Assembly: GCA_001783275.1 (NCBI GenBank)
Contig: MFRH01000004.1
Location: 6,265-41,423 of the forward strand
Length of the DNA stretch: 35,159 nucleotides
Reading direction: 5' to 3'
DNA from: Candidatus Margulisbacteria bacterium GWF2_35_9
GTDB taxonomy: Bacteria; Margulisbacteria; Riflemargulisbacteria; GWF2-35-9
In this document: positions 2,021-15,044 of the stretch, in pieces
Position numbering within the stretch: the stretch's first letter is position 1
How the letters are laid out: the number at the start of each line of letters is the position of its first letter
Translations under genes and position numbers: made by a program
The notes under the pieces: generated by a model
What the model was told of the DNA's origin: nothing
The model's database searches: none
Seen by the model: the letters and a program-made list of their open reading frames with translations, nothing else

Positions 2021-2719
2021 TTAGGTATGCTTTAAGCTTTTTATTTCCGTTTCGCTCAATGGCTTATAATCACCGGGCTTAAGGTTGTCCAGTACTATAT
2101 TTCCTATACGAATACGGATTAAACGAATGACTTCTCCGCCCACTTTATTAATCATTTTTCTTATTTGTCGATTTCGGCCTTCTTTCAGGATGAAATGAAA
2201 TTCATTTGAGTTTATAAGAACTACCTTAGACGGCAGAGTTTTCTTTCCCTTTAAAAAAACACCCTCTTCTAACTGGGTAATTATCTCATCTGTTATTTCT
2301 ATATTTACAACAACGATATACTCTCTTTCGTGAAGATCCTGAGTATTTAAAAATTGCTTGGCAAATATGCCGTCATTTGTAAACAAAATAAGTCCCTCGG
2401 AATCTTTGTCCAACCGGCCAACGCTATGCAAATTTTTATATTCTTCCGGAAGTAAATCAAGGACTTCCTTTTCTCCCTCAGAAGGTAAGTTAGTAAAAAT
2501 CCCTCTGGGTTTATATACTTTTATATAGCGATAATCTTGTTTAAGTTGAATTAATTCCTCAGATAGTTCGACAATATCTTTTTCTGGATCAATTTTTCGT
2601 CCAGGCTCAGTGACAACTTCGCCATTAACCTTTATCCATCCTTTAAGCAGATACTCCTCGGTTTTACGACGGGATAAAATGCCCTCACTCGATAAATATT
2701 TCTGTATTCTCATTTCCAT
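2021..2719 (-). CDS. RsuA/RluB-family rRNA pseudouridine synthase
   Basis: A 232-residue protein with an N-terminal S4 RNA-binding domain (residues 3-50, MRIQKYLSSEGILSRRK) and a pseudouridine synthase domain of the RsuA/RluB/RluE/RluF group from about residue 62. The catalytic motif is VGRLDKDSEGLILFTND with Asp104 as nucleophile; the conserved EGRNRQIRKM lies near residue 180. It isomerises a uridine in rRNA, most likely 23S as for RluB, but the target cannot be read from sequence. Two starts compete: ATG 2719 (MEMRIQ) and ATG 2713 (MRIQ), the latter matching relatives better. Neither has a Shine-Dalgarno. A TATAAT (2732-2737) predicts a leader of only about six bases. Confidence 0.92.
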   Translation of the reverse strand: MEMRIQKYLSSEGILSRRKTEEYLLKGWIKVNGEVVTEPGRKIDPEKDIVELSEELIQLKQDYRYIKVYKPRGIFTNLPSEGEKEVLDLLPEEYKNLHSVGRLDKDSEGLILFTNDGIFAKQFLNTQDLHEREYIVVVNIEITDEIITQLEEGVFLKGKKTLPSKVVLINSNEFHFILKEGRNRQIRKMINKVGGEVIRLIRIRIGNIVLDNLKPGDYKPLSETEIKSLKHT

Positions 2720-2731
2720 ATTGATTGGCTC

Positions 2732-2737
2732 ATTATA
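2732..2737 (-). promoter_or_regulatory. -10 box for the pseudouridine synthase gene
   Basis: The minus strand reads TATAAT here, 12 bases before ATG 2719. The expected transcription start near 2725 leaves almost no leader. The -35 is weak. Confidence 0.4.
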
Positions 2738-2755
2738 GCGAACATCTCTTTAAGT

Positions 2756-2785
2756 AAAAAGGGGTTAAAAATCCAGCCCCCTTTT
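2756..2785 (-). terminator. Rho-independent terminator behind the cheW remnant
   Basis: An eight-base-pair stem AAAAGGGG (2757-2764) with CCCCTTTT (2778-2785) and a 13-base loop; on the minus strand it ends in a T run. It overlaps the stop of the cheW remnant and separates that locus from the pseudouridine synthase gene. Confidence 0.5.
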
Positions 2786-2933
2786 ATATATACAATAAAA
2801 CTGAGAGTCCTCTTGAGTCTATATTCAACTTCTCACATAAATTAATAATCGGAATTACTTTTCCTCTTAGATTTATGACACCCTTAACATATTTATCCAC
2901 ATTTGGTATCGGAGTTATTTCTTCCATTAACAT
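2784..2933 (-). pseudogene. cheW: Remnant of a cheW chemotaxis coupling gene
   Basis: Reading the minus strand from ATG 2933 gives 49 codons up to TAA 2784. Residues 5-38 are the most conserved core of CheW: EEITPIPNVDKYVKGVINLR followed by GKVIPIINLCEKLNI. Intact CheW is about 150 residues; here the first 35 or so and the last half are gone, an in-frame TAA lies four codons before the upstream TTG, and the end runs into SRGLSVLLYI and a terminator. CheW links chemoreceptors to CheA. The piece is too short for a CheW fold, so it is called a pseudogene. It fills most of the 334-base stretch (2720-3053) without an intact gene. A short regulatory peptide cannot be excluded. Confidence 0.75.
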
Positions 2934-3003
2934 CCCCAAAAACCGCTTTTACGTGCTTGTTTTCACATCATAAAATGGCTTACGTTATGGCAAGCATTTA
3001 TAA

Positions 3004-3034
3004 TTTATACTATTCAATTATAAATAAAAGTCAA
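3004..3034 (-). promoter_or_regulatory. Possible promoter upstream of the cheW remnant
   Basis: The minus strand shows TTGACT (3029-3034), a 19-base spacer and TATAAA (3004-3009). The spacer is long, so this is a weak call. Confidence 0.25.
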
Positions 3035-3053
3035 TAGACTAGAAGAAAGAGTA

Positions 3054-3857
3054 CTATAAACCACCATAGGAATAGGATAGGCAATATTTTATTTCTTTAT
3101 TTATGTCATAGGGCATAATAATTGTGTAGTTAATTTTTCCGAAAGTGATCGGAATTTCAATTCCGGCACTATACCCATTTCTATTAATACCCCCTGACAA
3201 AACAAGGTTGTGATCCAGGAGTAAGGCCATCCCCGTCGCGTAGTAAATTCCTTCGCCTGCTTTTCGAGTATATTCTAAAGAATGTGTCCACAATAACTTT
3301 TCCATGGGAATCCATCCAAGACTAAATAAAACATGAGGGGAAACATCAATAGCCGTTTGACTCGACTTTTCTTTAAAAAAATGATCCAAGGTTATGCCCC
3401 AAAACATCTTTGACGGAGGAGACATAATAAAACTTACTCCTACTTTAGTGGTCCATATCTGAGACGATACTGCCCCATCATTAAGATTGATATGTTCAAC
3501 TATCATCCCCCATTTAATCCGTTCACTCATTTGAGCACCAAAGCCTGCAACTTGGATGTCATAAGAATTACCCGTATTTTTCTCCGTGTATTTTACTGAT
3601 CCAAAACCAGTGCTTCCAATGGTTAAATACTCCATTTGATAATTTGTATAATCCAGATTACCCGTATCCAAAAACTGTTTTCCAAATCCAAAACCTTGAT
3701 TAACTAGGAATGCCGGATTTACAAACAATGCTTCTCCATTTAGGATTAAGGCAATATTTGCTCCACCCATACTCAAATAACTGGCACCTTGTAACGTAAT
3801 TGCAAAATCAAATACTAAACAACTCACGACTAATAAGAATATCCGAATTTTATGCAT
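3054..3857 (-). CDS. Small PorV/FadL-like outer-membrane protein
   Basis: A 267-residue protein with a signal peptide (residues 1-24). At residues 26-50 it carries YLSMGGANIALILNGEALFV followed by NPAFL, a recognisable variant of the PorV/UPF0164 signature GMGGAYxAxxxDxxAxxxNPAGL. The rest is beta-strand rich with amphipathic aromatic strands, consistent with an outer-membrane barrel. It is shorter than the 355-residue relative at 280-1347 and may be a trimmed, diverged paralogue. It is divergent from the aminotransferase gene. No Shine-Dalgarno is seen before ATG 3857; a poor TAATAT box stands six bases upstream. Substrate or partner unknown. Confidence 0.7.
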   Translation of the reverse strand: MHKIRIFLLVVSCLVFDFAITLQGASYLSMGGANIALILNGEALFVNPAFLVNQGFGFGKQFLDTGNLDYTNYQMEYLTIGSTGFGSVKYTEKNTGNSYDIQVAGFGAQMSERIKWGMIVEHINLNDGAVSSQIWTTKVGVSFIMSPPSKMFWGITLDHFFKEKSSQTAIDVSPHVLFSLGWIPMEKLLWTHSLEYTRKAGEGIYYATGMALLLDHNLVLSGGINRNGYSAGIEIPITFGKINYTIIMPYDINKEIKYCLSYSYGGL

Positions 3858-3947
3858 AATATAATATTATCTAATTTATCTTGATTCGTCATTGAATTAT
3901 TCATTATTAAATCTCAAATCGCTATTTTTTATATACTGCAAATATTA

Positions 3948-3975
3948 TATAATTGAGTCATTATCATAAAAGGAG
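3948..3975 (+). promoter_or_regulatory. -10 box and ribosome-binding site of the aminotransferase gene
   Basis: TATAAT at 3948-3953 is followed by AGGAG at 3971-3975, seven bases before ATG 3983. This fixes the start at 3983 and rules out the in-frame TTG at 3953, which lies inside the -10 box. Confidence 0.6.
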
Positions 3976-3982
3976 AAAACCC

Positions 3983-5278
3983 ATGAATCCTCAAGCACTT
4001 GAACTTAACGAAATTATACAAACCAATTCAAACGCCACGTTCACATTATTAAGCCATAAAGGTAAACGCATTTTTTTTCCTAAAAAAGGAATACTAGCTC
4101 AAACCGCTCAAGCAAAAGGTAAACGAATAAATGCCACTATTGGAGCTGCTGTAGAGGATGATGGCTCTCCGATGAGATTAAAATCCATTGAAAAAGAATT
4201 AAATATCGACCCGTCTTTATCCTTTCCCTATGCACCTAGTTTTGGCAGACCCGATCTACGTAAAAAATGGAAAGAACTGCTCGTACAAAAAAATCCGACT
4301 CTTGCATCTAAACCCTTTAGCAACCCAATTGTTACAAATGCTCTTACTCATGGGCTTAGTATCTGCGGATATTTATTTGTCGATCCAGGAGATAGTATTA
4401 TTATGCCAAATCCTTATTGGGGAAATTATAATCTAACCTTTCAAAATGCTTATGATGCCGAATTTGATAAGTTTCCCTTATTTGAAAAAGAGGGAGTTAA
4501 TATAGCTGGGTTTAAAGAAAAGCTGATGACTGGGCATATTGGAAAAAAATTATTACTTCTTAACTTCCCAAATAACCCCACTGGATATACGCCAAAACAA
4601 CAAGAAGTTAAGGATATTTGTGAAATTATTCTTCAATCTGCAAAATTAGGGAATACTATTGTTGTTTTAATCGATGACGCTTATTTCGGCTTGGTTTATG
4701 AAGACGGAATCGAGAAAGAATCCTTTTTTTCTTATTTATCCGATCTTCATGAAAACGTACTAGCAGTTAAAATAGATGGGGCAACAAAAGAAGATTATGT
4801 CTGGGGTTTTCGTGTCGGTTTTCTTACGTTTGGAATAAAGGGTGGAAACAATTCTTTGTATGAAGCACTGGAAGCAAAAACTGCCGGAGCTATACGAGGA
4901 AATATATCTAATGCGTCAAACTTATCACAATCACTCGTTCTTGGAGCTTATTCAAGCAAGACCTATCAGAAAGAAAAAGCCGAAAAAAACATGATCTTAA
5001 ATAACCGATACAAAAAAGTGAAAGATGCTCTTAAAAAAGAGAAATATGCTGAAGTTTTTCAGCCCTTACCTTTTAACTCCGGATATTTTATGTGTGTGCA
5101 ACTTAACGCTGTTCTGGATGAAGAAAAAATAAGGCAAATTCTTTTAGATGAATTCGACACCGGAGTTATTAGTCTTCCAAATATGTTAAGAGTCGCCTAT
5201 TCGGCTGTAGCTGAACATGATATCGAAGAACTTTTTGAGAATATATATAACGCATGTATAAAATCTAAAAGTCTTTAG
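3983..5278 (+). CDS. PLP-dependent class I/II aminotransferase
   Basis: A 431-residue fold-type I aminotransferase, cytosolic. Visible landmarks are the substrate/cofactor loop MPNPYWGNYN (141-150), LLNFPNNPTGYTP (192-204) with the Asn that contacts pyridoxal phosphate, IDDAYFGLVYED (230-241) with the Asp and Tyr that bind the ring, and IDGATKEDYVWGFRVGF (264-280), in which Lys269 should form the Schiff base and Arg277 bind the substrate carboxylate. Family members transfer amino groups between amino acids such as aspartate or alanine and 2-oxoglutarate; the exact substrate is not evident. The tyrosine stretch between Lys269 and Arg277 is longer than in classical AspC. It is probably co-transcribed with the SH3-like gene 12 bases downstream. 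Confidence 0.9.
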   Translation: MNPQALELNEIIQTNSNATFTLLSHKGKRIFFPKKGILAQTAQAKGKRINATIGAAVEDDGSPMRLKSIEKELNIDPSLSFPYAPSFGRPDLRKKWKELLVQKNPTLASKPFSNPIVTNALTHGLSICGYLFVDPGDSIIMPNPYWGNYNLTFQNAYDAEFDKFPLFEKEGVNIAGFKEKLMTGHIGKKLLLLNFPNNPTGYTPKQQEVKDICEIILQSAKLGNTIVVLIDDAYFGLVYEDGIEKESFFSYLSDLHENVLAVKIDGATKEDYVWGFRVGFLTFGIKGGNNSLYEALEAKTAGAIRGNISNASNLSQSLVLGAYSSKTYQKEKAEKNMILNNRYKKVKDALKKEKYAEVFQPLPFNSGYFMCVQLNAVLDEEKIRQILLDEFDTGVISLPNMLRVAYSAVAEHDIEELFENIYNACIKSKSL

Positions 5279-5848: not shown

Positions 5849-5877
5849 TTGATTTATTTCTACTCTATGGATATAGT
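5849..5877 (+). promoter_or_regulatory. Sigma-70 type promoter of the chemoreceptor gene
   Basis: TTGATT (5849-5854), a 17-base spacer and TATAGT (5872-5877). The predicted start point near 5884 lies downstream of the alternative starts TTG 5849 and ATG 5867, supporting ATG 5939 as the real start. Confidence 0.6.
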
Positions 5878-5938
5878 AATTTATATTAGTATCAATTTAG
5901 TATCAATACTGATTTCGCATTGGGGGCATTACATTTAT

Positions 5939-7621
5939 ATGACCACGACAAAAAAAAATAATAAGATTGATTTATCAAAAAATCATAAAGCTACTTTTTT
6001 TTCAGATTTATCCTTATACAAAAAGATAATAATTGCACCGATAATAATTATTTTTTTTCTAATAATTATTGGAATTGTTGCCTTCTTTTTTACCTCAGAA
6101 CAATCCGATACCCTAAATGACATTTATAACGTTCGAGGAAAAGAGACCAGAGACTGTTCTGTCTTATCAACCCTTCTGGCAAAAAACCACACCTCACTAT
6201 ATAAAGCAATTACATGGGTCGAATCTTCTTATCCTGATGACTTAGTCGACCCATTAATAGCTACCGTAAAGAGTACCATCCTAGACATTCGTCAGAAAAC
6301 ATCTGAAAAGATTAAGGACCCTTCTTTGCTCGAAACTGAACAAAGTATCTATTCCAATATAGACTCCATACTGGGAAAATATTTTATTGGGGTAAGGGAT
6401 ACCTTAGATATTCTTAAAGCTGATACCAGTACTGCAGTTTTATATATGGGGGATTCAGAAGAAATGTTTTTAAATATTATGAATTTATTCGATCAACTAT
6501 ATGAGATGGAAAGCACCTTAGGACAATCTGCATTTAATAATTCTATAACGAACATCCATAAATTTAAACAAATGTTTGTTAGTCTATTTATCATAGGAAT
6601 TACCCTAGCATTAATTATAACCATGATAACCGCAAAAAGCATTTCGACTCCAATTAAGAATTGTATTCATATATTAAAAAAACTTTCTGTTGGCGATGTG
6701 TCGACAAAAATACAGGTTAATCGGAAAGATGAAATAGGCGAATTATTATCTGCCACGCAGGAAATTATTAATAGTCAGATGTCATTAGGGGAGCTATTAC
6801 AAAATATCTCCAAAGGGAATCTGGTCGTTGAGATAGCAATGCTTTCCGATAAAGATATGCTTCGGCAAGCATGCCAATTAATGGTGACAAGTTTAAAAGA
6901 GATTATTACTAAAATTATTGATGCTTCTGCCACGATTGTTTCTGGAAGCGCTCAACTTCACTCCAGCGCCAGCAGTATTGCAGAGGGTGCCGGGCAACAA
7001 GCTGTTGAAACTGAAAAAACCGTTTTATCGGTTGAACAATTGCTTATACAAATTCAATCCACTCTTGATAATGCAATCGCAACTCGCAAAAATGCCGATC
7101 TTTCAGCAATTGAAGCAAAAAATGGCGGAGAATCTTTTATCCAAGCGGTTGAGGCAATGAGACATATATCTAAAGAAATTACAATTATTGAAGATATTGC
7201 GAGACAAACAAATTTACTGGCCCTTAATGCAGCAATTGAAGCGGCAAGAGCCGGCGAGCAGGGAAGAGGATTTGCAGTTGTGGCTGCAGAAATTCGAAAA
7301 CTGGCTGAGCGCAGTCAGAAGGCTGCCGGAGAAATTATCGAGCTGGCAAAAGTCAGTACAGTAGTTGCAGAACAAGCTGGTCAAATTTTAGCTGACTTAG
7401 TTCCAAAAATAGATAAAACCGCTACATTGGTAGCTGACATCACTATTGCAGCAGAAGAACAGGAGGTAGAAGTCTCATCAATAAACGAAGCAGCTTCTAA
7501 GCTCAGTGGAATCACTCAACAAAACTCAGCAGCTTCTGAAGAACTGTCAGCTCTATCAATAGAGTTAGCAACCCAAGCCGAAGAAATGAGCGGAATGATT
7601 TCTTACTTTAAGGTTACCTAG
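5939..7621 (+). CDS. Methyl-accepting chemotaxis protein
   Basis: From ATG 5939 a 560-residue transmembrane chemoreceptor. Order: cytoplasmic tail, TM1 (29-51), a periplasmic four-helix-type sensor (52-210), TM2 (212-232), HAMP (233-285), a second HAMP-like helical segment to about 330, and the signalling hairpin. The hairpin tip at 418-450 is the invariant CheA/CheW contact: [20 protein letters not shown] then [20 protein letters not shown]. It would sense a periplasmic ligand and control a CheA kinase not present in this window; only a cheW remnant lies 3 kb away. No C-terminal CheR/CheB-binding pentapeptide is present. GGGGG at 5922-5926 is a poor but possible ribosome-binding site. Upstream in-frame starts would add an odd hydrophobic segment and lie before the predicted transcription start. 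Confidence 0.9.
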
Positions 7622-9003: not shown

Positions 9004-9900
9004 ATGGAAAAAACGAATCAAAAACTATATCAGAAACTAACCTATAAGGTTGGGGACTTATTACCATTACCCACTACAGTTTCAGAACTTATTAAATTAG
9101 CAAACAACCCAAATGTTACCTCTCGGGATATAGGGAAAATAATTGAACGAGACCAAGCTATGGCTTCAAAAATACTTCGTTTGGCAAATTCAGCTTCTTA
9201 TGGGTTTTCACAGCGAATTCGAACAATCTCTCATGCTATTGTGTGTCTTGGTTTCAATAAAGTAAAAAGTCTCGCTTTAACAGTTTCAACATTAAAAATG
9301 TTAAGTGACTCTCTTGCTAAATACAATTTAGACGCTGGAGCACTTTATAAACATAGTTTGGCCGTAGCAGTTGCAGCAAATATCATTGCAGAAAAAACAA
9401 AAGCGAAAGACCCAGAAGAAGTATATTTAATGGGGCTTTTACACGATATTGGTAAGCTGATAATTAATACACATACAACCAACGAGCTTGAGGATGTTTG
9501 GACTTATTACAAAACTCATAAAGATATTAAATTTTTCCAAGCTGAAAAAGCGGTGTTTGGGTTTGATCATGCCGACATCGGGGGAGAAGCAGCCAGAGGG
9601 TGGAATTTGCCAAACGAACTTTGCAATGCTATCGGGTATCATCATACCCCCCATAGTGCTCCAGGAGATAATCGTTGTGCGTTTATTATCCACTTAGCTG
9701 ATGGAATTGCAAAAACGATTGATATTGGGAAAGGATTGTCTTCTGATCAATCTATCGCTGTAGAGCTGGAGGGTACTTTCAAAGAACGAAATCTAGAGGT
9801 TATTAATCTAAAAAATGAAGATATTATGGGAATACGAGAACAAGTATCCATTAAGCTCCATGAGGTTATTGATGAACTTGATAATAATGAGGATTCTTAA
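9004..9900 (+). CDS. HDOD domain signalling protein
   Basis: A 298-residue cytosolic protein with an HDOD domain over residues 18-215: LLPLPTTVSELIKLANNP, then MASKILRLANSASYGF, then GLLHDIGKLII with His147-Asp148, FGFDHADIGGEAARGWNLP and IGYHHTPHSAP. HDOD proteins are non-catalytic or unproven relatives of HD phosphohydrolases that act in two-component and second-messenger signalling. Here the histidines of the HD fold are unusually well kept. Its TAA overlaps the ATG of the hybrid kinase (TAATG), so the two are almost certainly translated together and likely act in one pathway. The ribosome-binding site is weak; TACAAT at 8971-8976 could be the -10. Confidence 0.9.
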   Translation: MEKTNQKLYQKLTYKVGDLLPLPTTVSELIKLANNPNVTSRDIGKIIERDQAMASKILRLANSASYGFSQRIRTISHAIVCLGFNKVKSLALTVSTLKMLSDSLAKYNLDAGALYKHSLAVAVAANIIAEKTKAKDPEEVYLMGLLHDIGKLIINTHTTNELEDVWTYYKTHKDIKFFQAEKAVFGFDHADIGGEAARGWNLPNELCNAIGYHHTPHSAPGDNRCAFIIHLADGIAKTIDIGKGLSSDQSIAVELEGTFKERNLEVINLKNEDIMGIREQVSIKLHEVIDELDNNEDS

Positions 9901-12257
9901 TGTTAAAATCTAGCCTAATAAGCCATGATCACCAACAAAGCAGCCCTCTTCTTAAATCTTTTAAGACATATACTGATCTTGAAGGAGCCTCTCCTGATAA
10001 TCTTGTAAAAATCATTTTTGAGCTTCTGGCAAAAGCCGATGATCTTAAAGCTAATGAGGAAGACATCGAAAATAGTTATTTCTTACAAAATGCAATCAGC
10101 GCTATTTTGCAAATTTCCTTAGGGGATCAAGACCTTGAAAACAAGCTTAAACAATCCCTTGAAATGATTATATCTACTCCATGGTTTGATCTGCTGTTAC
10201 GAGGCGGTGTATTTCTTCTGGATAAAGGAACCGATGACTGGGGTTTATCTATAAACTACAATCTCGGACTCGAAGATATTGATAAGAAGGTACACGCATT
10301 TACAAAATCTAATTCATGGCTAAGCACTGTGGACTCCTGCCAGATTAGTCACTTTAATTACAAAGAATCCGATTTTGATATTTTAAAGACTCCTGGCTTA
10401 GAATGCGGGCATTATTTAATACCTCTTATTTCCAACAATCAATCTATCGGAATGATTCTTCTTTTCTCTGTAAAAGACCATATATTCAGCAACGAAGCCG
10501 AAGACTTTTTCGCCATAATATCAAATATATTATCCGGCACAATTGAACGGGACATGACCCAGCAAATTCTGACAAATTATCGAGATCATCTTGAAGATCT
10601 TGTTAAAAAAAGAACTGATGAGCTTATGATACTCAATACAAATCTTGTTGAAGCTGTAAAAAATGCAGAGCAGGCAAATAAATTGAAGGGTGATTTTCTA
10701 GCCAATATGTCTCATGAAATCCGAACTCCGATCAATGGAATCCTTGGGATGACTACTCTTTTTAAGCGTGATAATCTAACTTCAGAGCAGATTGATCAAC
10801 TTGAAATTATTAAAATTTCTACAAATTCTTTATTAAATCTTGTTAATGACATTTTAGATTTCTCTAAAATTGAAGCCGGTCTGCTTGAACTTGAATCAAT
10901 CCCTTTTAATATTAAAAATTTATTATCTGATAAATTAAAGATGTTTAAGCCAATGCTAAATGATAAAGACATTAATCTTTTCTCCTTTGTTTCTGATGAT
11001 GTTCCAGAATATGTAAAAGGCGATCCTGCACGTATCCAGCAAATCATCATTAACCTGATTTCAAATGCCATCAAGTTTACCCATGAAGGCGGGATAGAGG
11101 TCAACTGTACCGTTAAAAAAGACCTCCAAAAACATCTTCTCCTTCAGTTTGAGGTTAAAGACTCTGGGATTGGTATTCCTAAAGGGAAGACTGGCATCAT
11201 TTTTGACAGTTTCCGTCAGGCAGACGGGTCTCACACCCGAAAATATGGTGGTACTGGTCTTGGTCTTTCTATTTGCAAACAGCTTGTTGGATTAATGCAT
11301 GGGAAAATATGGGTTAAAAGCAAGGTGGATGTCGGCAGTTCCTTCTTTTTTAATATCAAACTCGATAAACTGACTGATGCAGAGCTGACAGCACAAAAAA
11401 TAGACGACGTTTCAAAAACCATTAATATTGAAGATTTCAAAACACTTAAAGTTTTATTAGCAGAAGATTTTGCTATTAATCAAAAGGTCTTTAAAGGAAT
11501 GCTCGAAATGTTTGGGCACCAAACTGTTATAGCAAACGATGGAGTGGAGGCTCTTTCCCTATATCAAAATGAAAATTTTGACCTTGTATTTATGGATATC
11601 CAAATGCCAAATATGGATGGAGTAGAATCCACAATTAGAATTCGAGAATATGAAAATAAATCCGGAAAACGAACTCCGATTATTGCTCTTACTGCTCATG
11701 CGATGAAAGGTGATCGTGAAAAATATATTAGCAAGGGAATGGACGATTATTTATCAAAACCTATTAATAGCGAAAATTTAGAAAAGCTATTATATAAATA
11801 TATGTCCAGTGCTAAAGGATTAGGAGTTGTTCAATTAAAGCAGCCCGTTGATAGTGGATCTATTGCTAAAACTGATGCCGTTATTTCTAGCATAAATATT
11901 GACTCATTGAACACTACCAATGCTCCCATCGACATGGCTCAGGCAATAAAAGAGTTTCGTGGTAATGCTGATTTAGTTTATGAATTACTGGCTGAATCCG
12001 TTGTTACTTTCCAGAATCAAGCAACCGAAATTGAGAAAGCATTAGAACGTTCTGACTTTGAGTTTATTCGAAGTAATGCTCATTCAATAAAGGGTGGAGC
12101 AGCAAACATGATTATTAATGATTTATCCGCTGCTGCAAAAAACCTTGAATTTGCTGCAAAAGAAGGTAATATAGAGAAGTGTGCGCTTTATACAAAAGAT
12201 TTACGTTTTGAGTCTGATCGCCTCGCAACCTATTTTCAGGAGGAAGTTAAAAAATGA
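9900..12257 (+). CDS. Soluble hybrid histidine kinase (GAF-HisKA-HATPase-REC-Hpt)
   Basis: A 785-residue kinase with no transmembrane segment. Order: helical N-terminus; GAF-like sensor (about 65-215); coiled coil (225-262); HisKA with phospho-acceptor His272 in MSHEIRTPINGILGM; HATPase_c with the N box (NLISNAIKF, 385-393), DSGIGIP (421-427) and GGTGLGLSI (450-458); receiver domain (516-635) with Asp566 in FMDIQMPNMDG and Lys620; and a C-terminal Hpt domain (675-780) with His728 in SNAHSIKGGA. This permits a full His-Asp-His-Asp relay. It overlaps HDOD upstream (TAATG) and the first of five stand-alone receivers downstream (ATGA), the natural targets of the Hpt domain. The input signal is unknown and would be intracellular. 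Confidence 0.94.
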   Translation: MLKSSLISHDHQQSSPLLKSFKTYTDLEGASPDNLVKIIFELLAKADDLKANEEDIENSYFLQNAISAILQISLGDQDLENKLKQSLEMIISTPWFDLLLRGGVFLLDKGTDDWGLSINYNLGLEDIDKKVHAFTKSNSWLSTVDSCQISHFNYKESDFDILKTPGLECGHYLIPLISNNQSIGMILLFSVKDHIFSNEAEDFFAIISNILSGTIERDMTQQILTNYRDHLEDLVKKRTDELMILNTNLVEAVKNAEQANKLKGDFLANMSHEIRTPINGILGMTTLFKRDNLTSEQIDQLEIIKISTNSLLNLVNDILDFSKIEAGLLELESIPFNIKNLLSDKLKMFKPMLNDKDINLFSFVSDDVPEYVKGDPARIQQIIINLISNAIKFTHEGGIEVNCTVKKDLQKHLLLQFEVKDSGIGIPKGKTGIIFDSFRQADGSHTRKYGGTGLGLSICKQLVGLMHGKIWVKSKVDVGSSFFFNIKLDKLTDAELTAQKIDDVSKTINIEDFKTLKVLLAEDFAINQKVFKGMLEMFGHQTVIANDGVEALSLYQNENFDLVFMDIQMPNMDGVESTIRIREYENKSGKRTPIIALTAHAMKGDREKYISKGMDDYLSKPINSENLEKLLYKYMSSAKGLGVVQLKQPVDSGSIAKTDAVISSINIDSLNTTNAPIDMAQAIKEFRGNADLVYELLAESVVTFQNQATEIEKALERSDFEFIRSNAHSIKGGAANMIINDLSAAAKNLEFAAKEGNIEKCALYTKDLRFESDRLATYFQEEVKK

Positions 12258-12655
12258 GCATTATAATTATTGATGATGAGTTAATCAGCAGAAAAAAGCT
12301 GAGTGAGATTTTAAAGCCATATGGAGAATGTATTGAGTTTGACCGTGGTGATTCCGCATTGGTTGCTATTGAAAAAATGATAAAAAGCAAACAGCAGATT
12401 GATCTTATTACAGTTGATATCTCAATGCCCTACTTAAACGGTCTTGCTGTATTAAAGAAAATTCGAACCCTAGAGGTTGATAATAATGTCTTAGAAGTAA
12501 ATCAATCTAAAATAATTATGGTCACATCTAGCGTTAATCGCGATAATGTTATGGAAGCGTTATCTCAAGGTTGTAATGATTATATTCTTAAACCGTTCAA
12601 TGAAGAAGCAATTATTGCTCGGCTTAAAAAACAAAATATAATTGTTAGTGAATAA
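12254..12655 (+). CDS. Single-domain response regulator 1 of 5
   Basis: A 133-residue CheY-like receiver with no output domain. The acidic pair Asp7-Asp8 (IIIIDDELISRKKL), phospho-acceptor Asp55 (LITVDISMP), Thr91 (IIMVTSS) and Lys113 (DYILKPF) are all present. The gene overlaps the hybrid kinase stop by four bases (ATGA), with AGGAGG at 12238-12243 inside the kinase gene, so production is coupled to the kinase. Likely a phosphate acceptor of the kinase Hpt domain; its downstream partner is not evident. Confidence 0.92.
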   Translation: MSIIIIDDELISRKKLSEILKPYGECIEFDRGDSALVAIEKMIKSKQQIDLITVDISMPYLNGLAVLKKIRTLEVDNNVLEVNQSKIIMVTSSVNRDNVMEALSQGCNDYILKPFNEEAIIARLKKQNIIVSE

Positions 12656-12670
12656 AACAGGAGATTACTT

Positions 12671-13063
12671 GTGAACATAATGATAGTGGATGATGAACTA
12701 ATCAGTCGTAAGAAGTTGAGTATTATATTACAAGCTTATGGAAAGTGCTTTGAATTTTCTGATGGGGCCAGCGCCCTTGAGTTTTACAAAAATGCCGTAA
12801 AAGAAAATACCCAGATCGGATTAATCACCTTAGATATTGATATGCCAAAACTTACTGGGATTGAAACGCTCGGATTGATAAGAGATCTTCAGAAAGCCCA
12901 GAATGTACCTGCAAGTAACCGACCTAAAGTATTCATGGTAACATCCATGAACGATCAAAAAAACCTAATGAATTCTCTCACGCAAGGTTGTAGTGACTAT
13001 ATCGTTAAGCCCTTTGATGAAGAAAAAATTATAGATAAACTACATAATCATTTGCTCATTTAA
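12671..13063 (+). CDS. Single-domain response regulator 2 of 5
   Basis: A 130-residue receiver beginning at GTG 12671, supported by AGGAG at 12659-12663. Asp7-Asp8, Asp55 (LITLDIDMP), Thr91 (FMVTSM) and Lys113 (YIVKPFDEEKI) are intact. It shares the ISRKKL helix-1 motif and the GC[SN]DY[IV].KPF ending with its neighbours, showing tandem duplication. The C-terminal helix IIDKLHNHLLI differs most from the others. It starts 15 bases after response regulator 1. Confidence 0.92.
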   Translation: MNIMIVDDELISRKKLSIILQAYGKCFEFSDGASALEFYKNAVKENTQIGLITLDIDMPKLTGIETLGLIRDLQKAQNVPASNRPKVFMVTSMNDQKNLMNSLTQGCSDYIVKPFDEEKIIDKLHNHLLI

Positions 13064-13076
13064 GGAAAAAAGATTT

Positions 13077-13472
13077 ATGGATATTATAATTGTTGATGAT
13101 GAACTAGTTGCCAGAAAAAAACTGACAGAAATTTTAAAACAATTCGGTGATTGTCATGAATTTCCTGAAGGAAACAGCGCAATTACTTACTTTGGTAATA
13201 TGTTGCGCGATAAAAAGAAAATCGGTCTTATTACGTTAGACATCTCCATGCCAAGCGCTAGCGGTATTACAGTTCTCCATCGACTACGCGTTCTTGAACG
13301 AATTTCTGGGATTATTCCCACTCAACAAACTCCCATCTTAATGGTCACTGCCAATACAGACAAATCAAAGGTAAATAAGGCGTTGTCCCTAGGCTGTACC
13401 GATTATATTTTAAAACCTTTTGATGAAGTTACTATTCTTGCCCGTCTAAAAAAACATAATATAATACACTGA
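13077..13472 (+). CDS. Single-domain response regulator 3 of 5
   Basis: A 131-residue receiver. Asp7-Asp8 (IIIVDDELVARKKL), Asp55 (LITLDISMPSASG), Thr91 (ILMVTAN) and Lys113 (YILKPFDE) are all kept. An AAGGAA just after the previous stop serves as ribosome-binding site. The surface after Asp55 (SASGITVLHRL) and the segment before beta-4 differ from the other four copies, which would alter partner choice while keeping the active site. Confidence 0.92.
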   Translation: MDIIIVDDELVARKKLTEILKQFGDCHEFPEGNSAITYFGNMLRDKKKIGLITLDISMPSASGITVLHRLRVLERISGIIPTQQTPILMVTANTDKSKVNKALSLGCTDYILKPFDEVTILARLKKHNIIH

Positions 13473-13477
13473 GAACA

Positions 13478-13882
13478 ATGACAAAAAAAATAAACGCACT
13501 AATAATTGATGATGATGTAGTTAGCTGTAAAAAGTTATCTGAAATACTTGAACCCTATGCCACTTGCAGTGTGTTTTATGAAGGCAAAAAAGCAATTGAA
13601 GCTTATGACAGTATCATCCGTAAGGGCGATAAAATTGATTTAATTACTTTAGATATTGCTATGCCATTGTTTGATGGCATTGATACGCTAAAAGAATTAC
13701 GGTCCATTGAAAGCAACTATCATATTAATAAAGATGATTCTGCAATAATTATCATGATTACCAGTAGCTTTGATAAACACAAGATTACAGAGTCCTTTGA
13801 AAAAGGTTGCAACGATTATATTATTAAACCCTTCGACGAAAAGAAACTATTGGCTCGATTAAAAAGTAATAATCTTTTGTAG
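13478..13882 (+). CDS. Single-domain response regulator 4 of 5
   Basis: A 134-residue receiver with a four-residue N-terminal extension (MTKKINALIIDDD). Asp11-Asp12, Asp59 (LITLDIAMPLFDG), Thr95 (IIMITSSFDK) and Lys117 (YIIKPFDEKKL) are intact. It starts five bases after the stop of copy 3 with only a weak GAGA upstream, suggesting coupled translation. It is closest to copy 5 (shared DIAMPxFDGI, TSSF[DN]K, CNDYIIKPFDE), so these two probably arose by the latest duplication. Confidence 0.92.
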   Translation: MTKKINALIIDDDVVSCKKLSEILEPYATCSVFYEGKKAIEAYDSIIRKGDKIDLITLDIAMPLFDGIDTLKELRSIESNYHINKDDSAIIIMITSSFDKHKITESFEKGCNDYIIKPFDEKKLLARLKSNNLL

Positions 13883-13909
13883 AACTGTCCGGCATTATTA
13901 AGTAACTAA

Positions 13910-13938
13910 TTGCATAATTTCACTGAATTGGTTAATAT
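13910..13938 (+). promoter_or_regulatory. Possible separate promoter for response regulator 5
   Basis: TTGCAT (13910-13915), a 17-base spacer and TAATAT (13933-13938). The -10 lies inside a perfect 12-base palindrome GTTAATATTAAC (13931-13942), which could be a repressor site. The 117-base gap is the only large one in the array. Confidence 0.35.
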
Positions 13939-13999
13939 TAACTAATAACGACCATTAAAGTTATTTTTAAAGAAACTAATCACATAAAAGAGGTTATAA

Positions 14000-14392
14000 A
14001 TGAATATACTGATTGTAGAGGACGAAGTTATCAGCAGTAAGAAACTTTCAGAAATACTGTCGTCTTATGGGGATATCAAAGTATTTTATGATGGCAAAAG
14101 CGCAATCTCCTACTACAAAAAAAGCCTTAAAGAAAATATCCCAATTCAGCTAATTACACTTGATATTGCTATGCCAGAGTTTGATGGCATTGAAACCCTA
14201 ATTGAATTAAGAGCCTTTGAAAAAGAGTTAGGATTAAAACAGGACGATTGTTCAAAAATAATCATGGTTACCAGCAGTTTCAATAAAGAGAAAATTACAG
14301 AATGTTTTGCTCAAGGCTGTAATGATTATATTATAAAACCTTTCGATGAGGGGAAAATACTATCTCGTTTAAAGAATAATCGCTTACTCTAA
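14000..14392 (+). CDS. Single-domain response regulator 5 of 5
   Basis: A 130-residue receiver: acidic pair Glu7-Asp8 (LIVEDEVISSKKL), Asp55 (LITLDIAMPEFDG), Thr91 (IIMVTSSFNKE) and Lys113 (YIIKPFDEGKI). It is most similar to copy 4. Unlike the others it lies behind a 117-base gap with its own possible promoter, so it may be expressed apart from the kinase. AGAGG a few bases before ATG 14000 is the likely ribosome-binding site. It is convergent with the Popeye-like gene, ten bases away, with no clear terminator between. Confidence 0.92.
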   Translation: MNILIVEDEVISSKKLSEILSSYGDIKVFYDGKSAISYYKKSLKENIPIQLITLDIAMPEFDGIETLIELRAFEKELGLKQDDCSKIIMVTSSFNKEKITECFAQGCNDYIIKPFDEGKILSRLKNNRLL

Positions 14393-14402
14393 TTTTATCT
14401 AA

Positions 14403-15044
14403 TTACTTCGTTGACGCCATCTTTACTTTTTCAACCAAATCTTTACCAATTGTAGCTAAAATTTTATTCCATATTTCCGGCATTTCCATCTCCATTTTTT
14501 TAACCAAAGAATGTGTCCATTGCATATATTGAAGATCTTCTTGTGCAACAACCGTTGCAGAAGCAGCTTCGCCAGTTAATAAACTCATTTCAGCTACAAA
14601 ATTTCCTCGATTAAGAATTGCAACTTCTTTAAAGTTCTTTCTAACACTTGCCTTTCCCCCAGTAATGAACATTAAATTATTTAGTTTCTCTCCTCTGGTA
14701 ATAATAGCTTTCCCATTTTTAGGCTCTTGTTTGTCGCCTAATTTCCAAAAATACAGAAATTCCTTTCTGGTCATGATAGGAAAATGTGCTTGGTATACTG
14801 CTAAAATATCTTCTTCCATTTTAATGGGTTTTCTATCCTTAATAATACCAATAACCTTGTAAATATTCAGAATAACAAAAACTGAGTTCCAAAATGTAAC
14901 AATATAATTTCCAATGAGAATCGAGTATCCAATCATAATGAATTGAGCAGAAGTTAGCATGCATCTAAGAAATAGGATATCTTTGACCGTCAGGGCTATA
15001 AACATCAGCAAATAGCCAATATTTAGCAGTATATATACAGACAC
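14403..15044 (-). CDS. Popeye-like membrane protein with cyclic-nucleotide-binding-type domain
   Basis: A 213-residue protein: three transmembrane helices packed in residues 4-68, then a cyclic-nucleotide-binding (CNB) jelly roll at about 78-200. The CNB hallmarks are IITRGEKLNNLMFITGGKAS (114-133) and the phosphate-binding cassette FVAEMSLLTGEAASATVVA (149-167). The cassette keeps the Glu but has Ala where CRP and PKA-type domains have the phosphate-binding Arg. Three TM helices plus a non-canonical CNB is the layout of Popeye (POPDC) proteins and their bacterial relatives. GTG 15044 is preceded by AAAGGA, and the gene begins three bases after the STAS gene stop, so the two form an operon. 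Ligand not known. Confidence 0.75.
   Translation of the reverse strand: MSVYILLNIGYLLMFIALTVKDILFLRCMLTSAQFIMIGYSILIGNYIVTFWNSVFVILNIYKVIGIIKDRKPIKMEEDILAVYQAHFPIMTRKEFLYFWKLGDKQEPKNGKAIITRGEKLNNLMFITGGKASVRKNFKEVAILNRGNFVAEMSLLTGEAASATVVAQEDLQYMQWTHSLVKKMEMEMPEIWNKILATIGKDLVEKVKMASTK

Follow-up and report, generated by a model that had tools for sequence, protein, structure and literature searches.

CheW is built of two five-stranded barrels; a pair formed by Arg62 and Glu38 aligns its receptor and kinase sites, and a working complex requires both residues (PMC3828127). A complete two-subdomain CheW domain extends over about 138 positions of the Pfam profile PF01584. In truncated pseudogenes of bacteria, a recognisable core stands between complete genes, and intact paralogues exist at other sites; a limited literature search for cheW pseudogenes returned nothing relevant. 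Here we describe a short reading frame with the core of a CheW domain in a stretch of 35,159 nucleotides (the window) from the draft genome of Candidatus Margulisbacteria bacterium GWF2_35_9. It differs in no essential from those pseudogenes, and is very probably a dead piece of an extra cheW copy.

The frame lies on the minus strand at 2784..2933 and comprises 49 codons followed by TAA (MLMEEITPIPNVDKYVKGVINLRGKVIPIINLCEKLNIDSRGLSVLLYI*). An alternative TTG start at 2939 extends it to 51 codons, and from stop to stop it measures 54. Its residues 3-41 matched positions 25-63 of the 138 in PF01584 with an E-value of 1.2e-11 and a score of 44.8 bits, above the family cut-off of 23.5, and CheW chains of solved structure in the PDB aligned to the same stretch (E about 7e-9). 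The match is far beyond chance and, because the chance of a spurious one is negligible, the observation of a conserved CheW core stands. The frame shares with stand-alone CheW proteins this core, including the motif NLRG with the equivalent of Arg62, but nothing of the profile outside positions 25-63; the domain lacks its N-terminal part and all of its C-terminal half. On the E. coli sequence, we take the position of Glu38 to lie upstream of the core, in the absent N-terminal part. Only half of the Glu38-Arg62 pair is thus represented, by the Arg62 equivalent in NLRG, while the region of Glu38 is missing.

Whether the missing ends persist nearby was examined with a permissive profile made from intact CheW proteins of the class, run with filters off and with stop codons read through. 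No other CheW-like piece was found in the six frames of 2601-3300, in agreement with the first-pass annotation, which had described a 49-codon core with both ends gone. Roughly 45-50 codons are absent at the N-terminal side and roughly 85-90 at the C-terminal side, and the upstream stop codon is just about 114 bp away from the remnant, the downstream start codon just 64 bp. The missing codons would need more space than this and therefore cannot fit between the remnant and its neighbours. A sequencing frameshift, the error that could have restored a full cheW frame, is excluded because the remainder of CheW occurs in no frame of this region and the flanking space is too small. The gene has physically lost both of its ends and is not merely frameshifted. 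Convincing direct repeats, as scars of deletion, were not found flanking it. Its 49 codons compare with at least 143 in intact frames, of which the genome holds copies elsewhere. Comparably short CheW frames numbered zero in the rest of the eight genomes of the class (all others at least 146 codons) and zero among 80 named loci (all at least 143 codons).

The remnant is flanked by two intact genes of its own strand. Downstream lies an rsuA/rluF-type pseudouridine synthase gene (2021..2719), recognised by the Pfam domains PseudoU_synth_2 and S4 and by TIGR00093 above its cut-off. Upstream lies a gene (3054..3857) of no Pfam family that is conserved in the class, with homologues in six of the seven other genomes; its product is predicted to be outer-membrane-like. 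The spacer between this gene and the remnant (2940..3053) is AT-rich, with 28% GC, and no N-terminal part of CheW was recognisable in it by the permissive six-frame profile search. The sole RNA-element match in the spacer was a sub-threshold Rfam hit (21.8 bits against a threshold of 50) that lies outside the remnant. The first-pass annotation had placed promoter-like sequence and a terminator around the frame, and of these signals the hairpin held up. A terminator-like hairpin (AAAAAGGGG...CCCC.TTTT) at 2757..2786, located by pattern scan and folding, extends up to the remnant's stop codon and sets the remnant apart from rsuA. The scan assigned the stem (2761-2780) to the plus strand; on the minus strand it forms 10 pairs and is not clearly better than shuffled sequences (z = -0.74). 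Promoter-like sites, on the other hand, were as frequent in 2600-4000 as in shuffles (6 against 7.4 +/- 2.8 expected), and the promoter-like sequence therefore deserves no weight. Inspection by eye revealed no clear ribosome-binding site for the remnant.

We then considered whether chemotactic coupling persists in the genome to which the window belongs (G000), a 2.35-Mb draft in 100 contigs that is about 87% complete with 4.8% contamination. A search for intact cheW and cheA found both. Six complete CheW domains are present: three in stand-alone CheW proteins (contigs C46, C67 and C39), one in a CheW-REC protein resembling CheV (C22), and two in CheA-type proteins, namely a CheA of 762 codons on C46 and a CheA-type tail on C67. 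Contig C46 thus carries a complete CheW of 167 codons, in contrast to the truncated remnant, together with the 762-codon CheA. A second CheA dimerisation domain sits at the edge of contig C18, and 17 signalling domains of chemoreceptors (MCP) were counted. Given these complete copies and receptors, coupling was not lost. The tail on C67 belongs to a 352-codon frame near the start of the contig (L065, 452-1510), in which a receiver domain is fused to the remainder of the HATPase domain and a CheW domain; the frame may have arisen by chimeric assembly or by an in-frame deletion within a CheA gene.

The intact chemoreceptor noticed about 3 kb from the remnant was corroborated as a methyl-accepting chemotaxis protein on the plus strand (5849..7621) with all three of the domains 4HB_MCP_1, HAMP and MCPsignal (E = 3.6e-30 for the last). 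It can be coupled by the complete CheW domains of the genome. The nearest homologues of its sensory half, in G002, G005 and G000, are on contigs in which no CheW was matched, save for one very weak hit on C67. We rejected a partnership of the remnant with this receptor, since the homologous receptors are essentially unlinked to cheW; a functional link of the remnant with the receptor 3 kb away is not supported.

To find clues to its origin, we compared the remnant with its closest intact relative in the genome, the CheW of C46, with which it shares 61% identity over 36 residues. The 36 codons differ at 11 first, 5 second and 20 third positions, with a dS of about 1.4; the differences between two intact paralogues, L001 and L021, are distributed alike (13, 4 and 17). 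The remnant also keeps 13 of the 15 columns conserved in the class. It is what is left of a separate CheW that had been under long selection, rather than of a recent copy of the C46 gene in decay, because its codon-position pattern is like that between intact paralogues; the same pattern, with the 13 conserved columns, suggests that the truncation came late, so that the core is still readable. Similarity did not single out a source lineage, since a large number of unrelated CheW proteins reach much the same score (about 47-50 bits over 36 residues). A second copy or a repeat element was also rejected: the matches of the 341-bp DNA stretch in the genome were the true cheW of C46 and short chance matches, and its match on C39 encodes a different protein in another frame. 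An origin as viral cargo was discarded, as viral contigs hold no relative of the remnant.

The syntenic site was compared among the other genomes of the class, of which four belong to the same family and none to the same genus. In G005, pth and the outer-membrane-like gene lie 4 bp apart without cheW, and in G003 they are separated by an unrelated gene, again without cheW; in G001 and G002 other genes lie downstream of the outer-membrane-like gene. As the readable relatives have no cheW at the site, nothing indicates a family-wide loss of an ancestral cheW there. The rsuA-type gene and the cheW remnant are specific to the lineage of the window among the compared genomes. The closest homologues of the rsuA-type gene in the class (49-50%) belong to another family of the order and stand at another place, and matches within the same family are at only 33-41%. 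Transfer may have brought this gene in, or the other genomes may have lost it.

The homology to CheW, the two physically missing ends, the intact cheW copies in other parts of the genome and the cheW-free site in the readable relatives lead us to favour a dead fragment that probably makes no useful product, and to infer an order of events. In this lineage the place between pth and the outer-membrane-like gene would have had, or received, a CheW gene long under selection, either a paralogue or one acquired horizontally; deletions would then have taken its first roughly 45-50 and last roughly 85-90 codons and left the core of the first subdomain, with coupling supplied by the six complete CheW domains elsewhere. 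Three features speak against a dead fragment: the still open frame with its CheW consensus, the need for a loss on each side, which is less simple than a single event, and the lack of convincing direct repeats at the breakpoints. The open frame says little, however, because 10-20 random substitutions would leave the core frame open in 34-56% of cases. A functional small protein, possible but unlikely on these sequences, would account for the open frame, the ATG starts and the retained NLRG core with its Arg62 equivalent, and the codon-position differences, which derive from comparison with paralogues only, do look coding. Nevertheless, a selected "mini-CheW" that would compete with or modulate others by binding to receptors or CheA is highly improbable: no other CheW frame so short was seen in the eight class genomes or the 80 named loci, most of the two-barrel fold and the region of Glu38 are missing (PMC3828127), and neither a clear ribosome-binding site nor a promoter beyond chance was seen. 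That a 49-residue core protein would be made and act as such in receptor arrays is scarcely to be expected.

Alternatively, the organism may have a complete cheW of which the draft assembly dropped a part. The fragmentation, incompleteness and contamination of the draft are in keeping with such an artefact, yet the contig runs through intact genes on both sides, and the join is plausible, given that pth and the outer-membrane-like gene adjoin in G005 and stand close together in G003. An artefact would also take two separate losses, and a simple frameshift is excluded. Assembly loss is therefore an unlikely cause of the missing ends. The first-pass annotation had proposed either the loss of a coupling gene in this lineage or an escaped duplicate. 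The cheW remnant itself is real and the duplicate, or escaped copy, fits; but the idea that the lineage lost its main or even sole coupling gene, so that the chemoreceptor is now uncoupled, has next to no chance of being right. That a disrupted cheW lies 3 kb from a receptor is the sole point in its favour, and the six complete CheW domains, including those of the contig with the 167-codon CheW and the 762-codon CheA, refute it unless those contigs are contaminants.

The dead fragment would represent one extra CheW copy lost by a chemotactic bacterium with several paralogues, which is routine gene turnover and matters little; as a truncated gene fragment it is of an ordinary kind. Automatic annotation pipelines, however, may label it a small CheW.

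Elsewhere in the window, at 9900-14392, the gene of a hybrid histidine kinase (HisKA, HATPase, receiver and Hpt domains) precedes an unusual tandem array on its strand, in which five stand-alone response-regulator genes, each with 130-134 codons, come one after another. The stretch 14403-15044 encodes a cyclic-nucleotide-binding protein that also scored above the cut-off for Pfam POPDC1-3.
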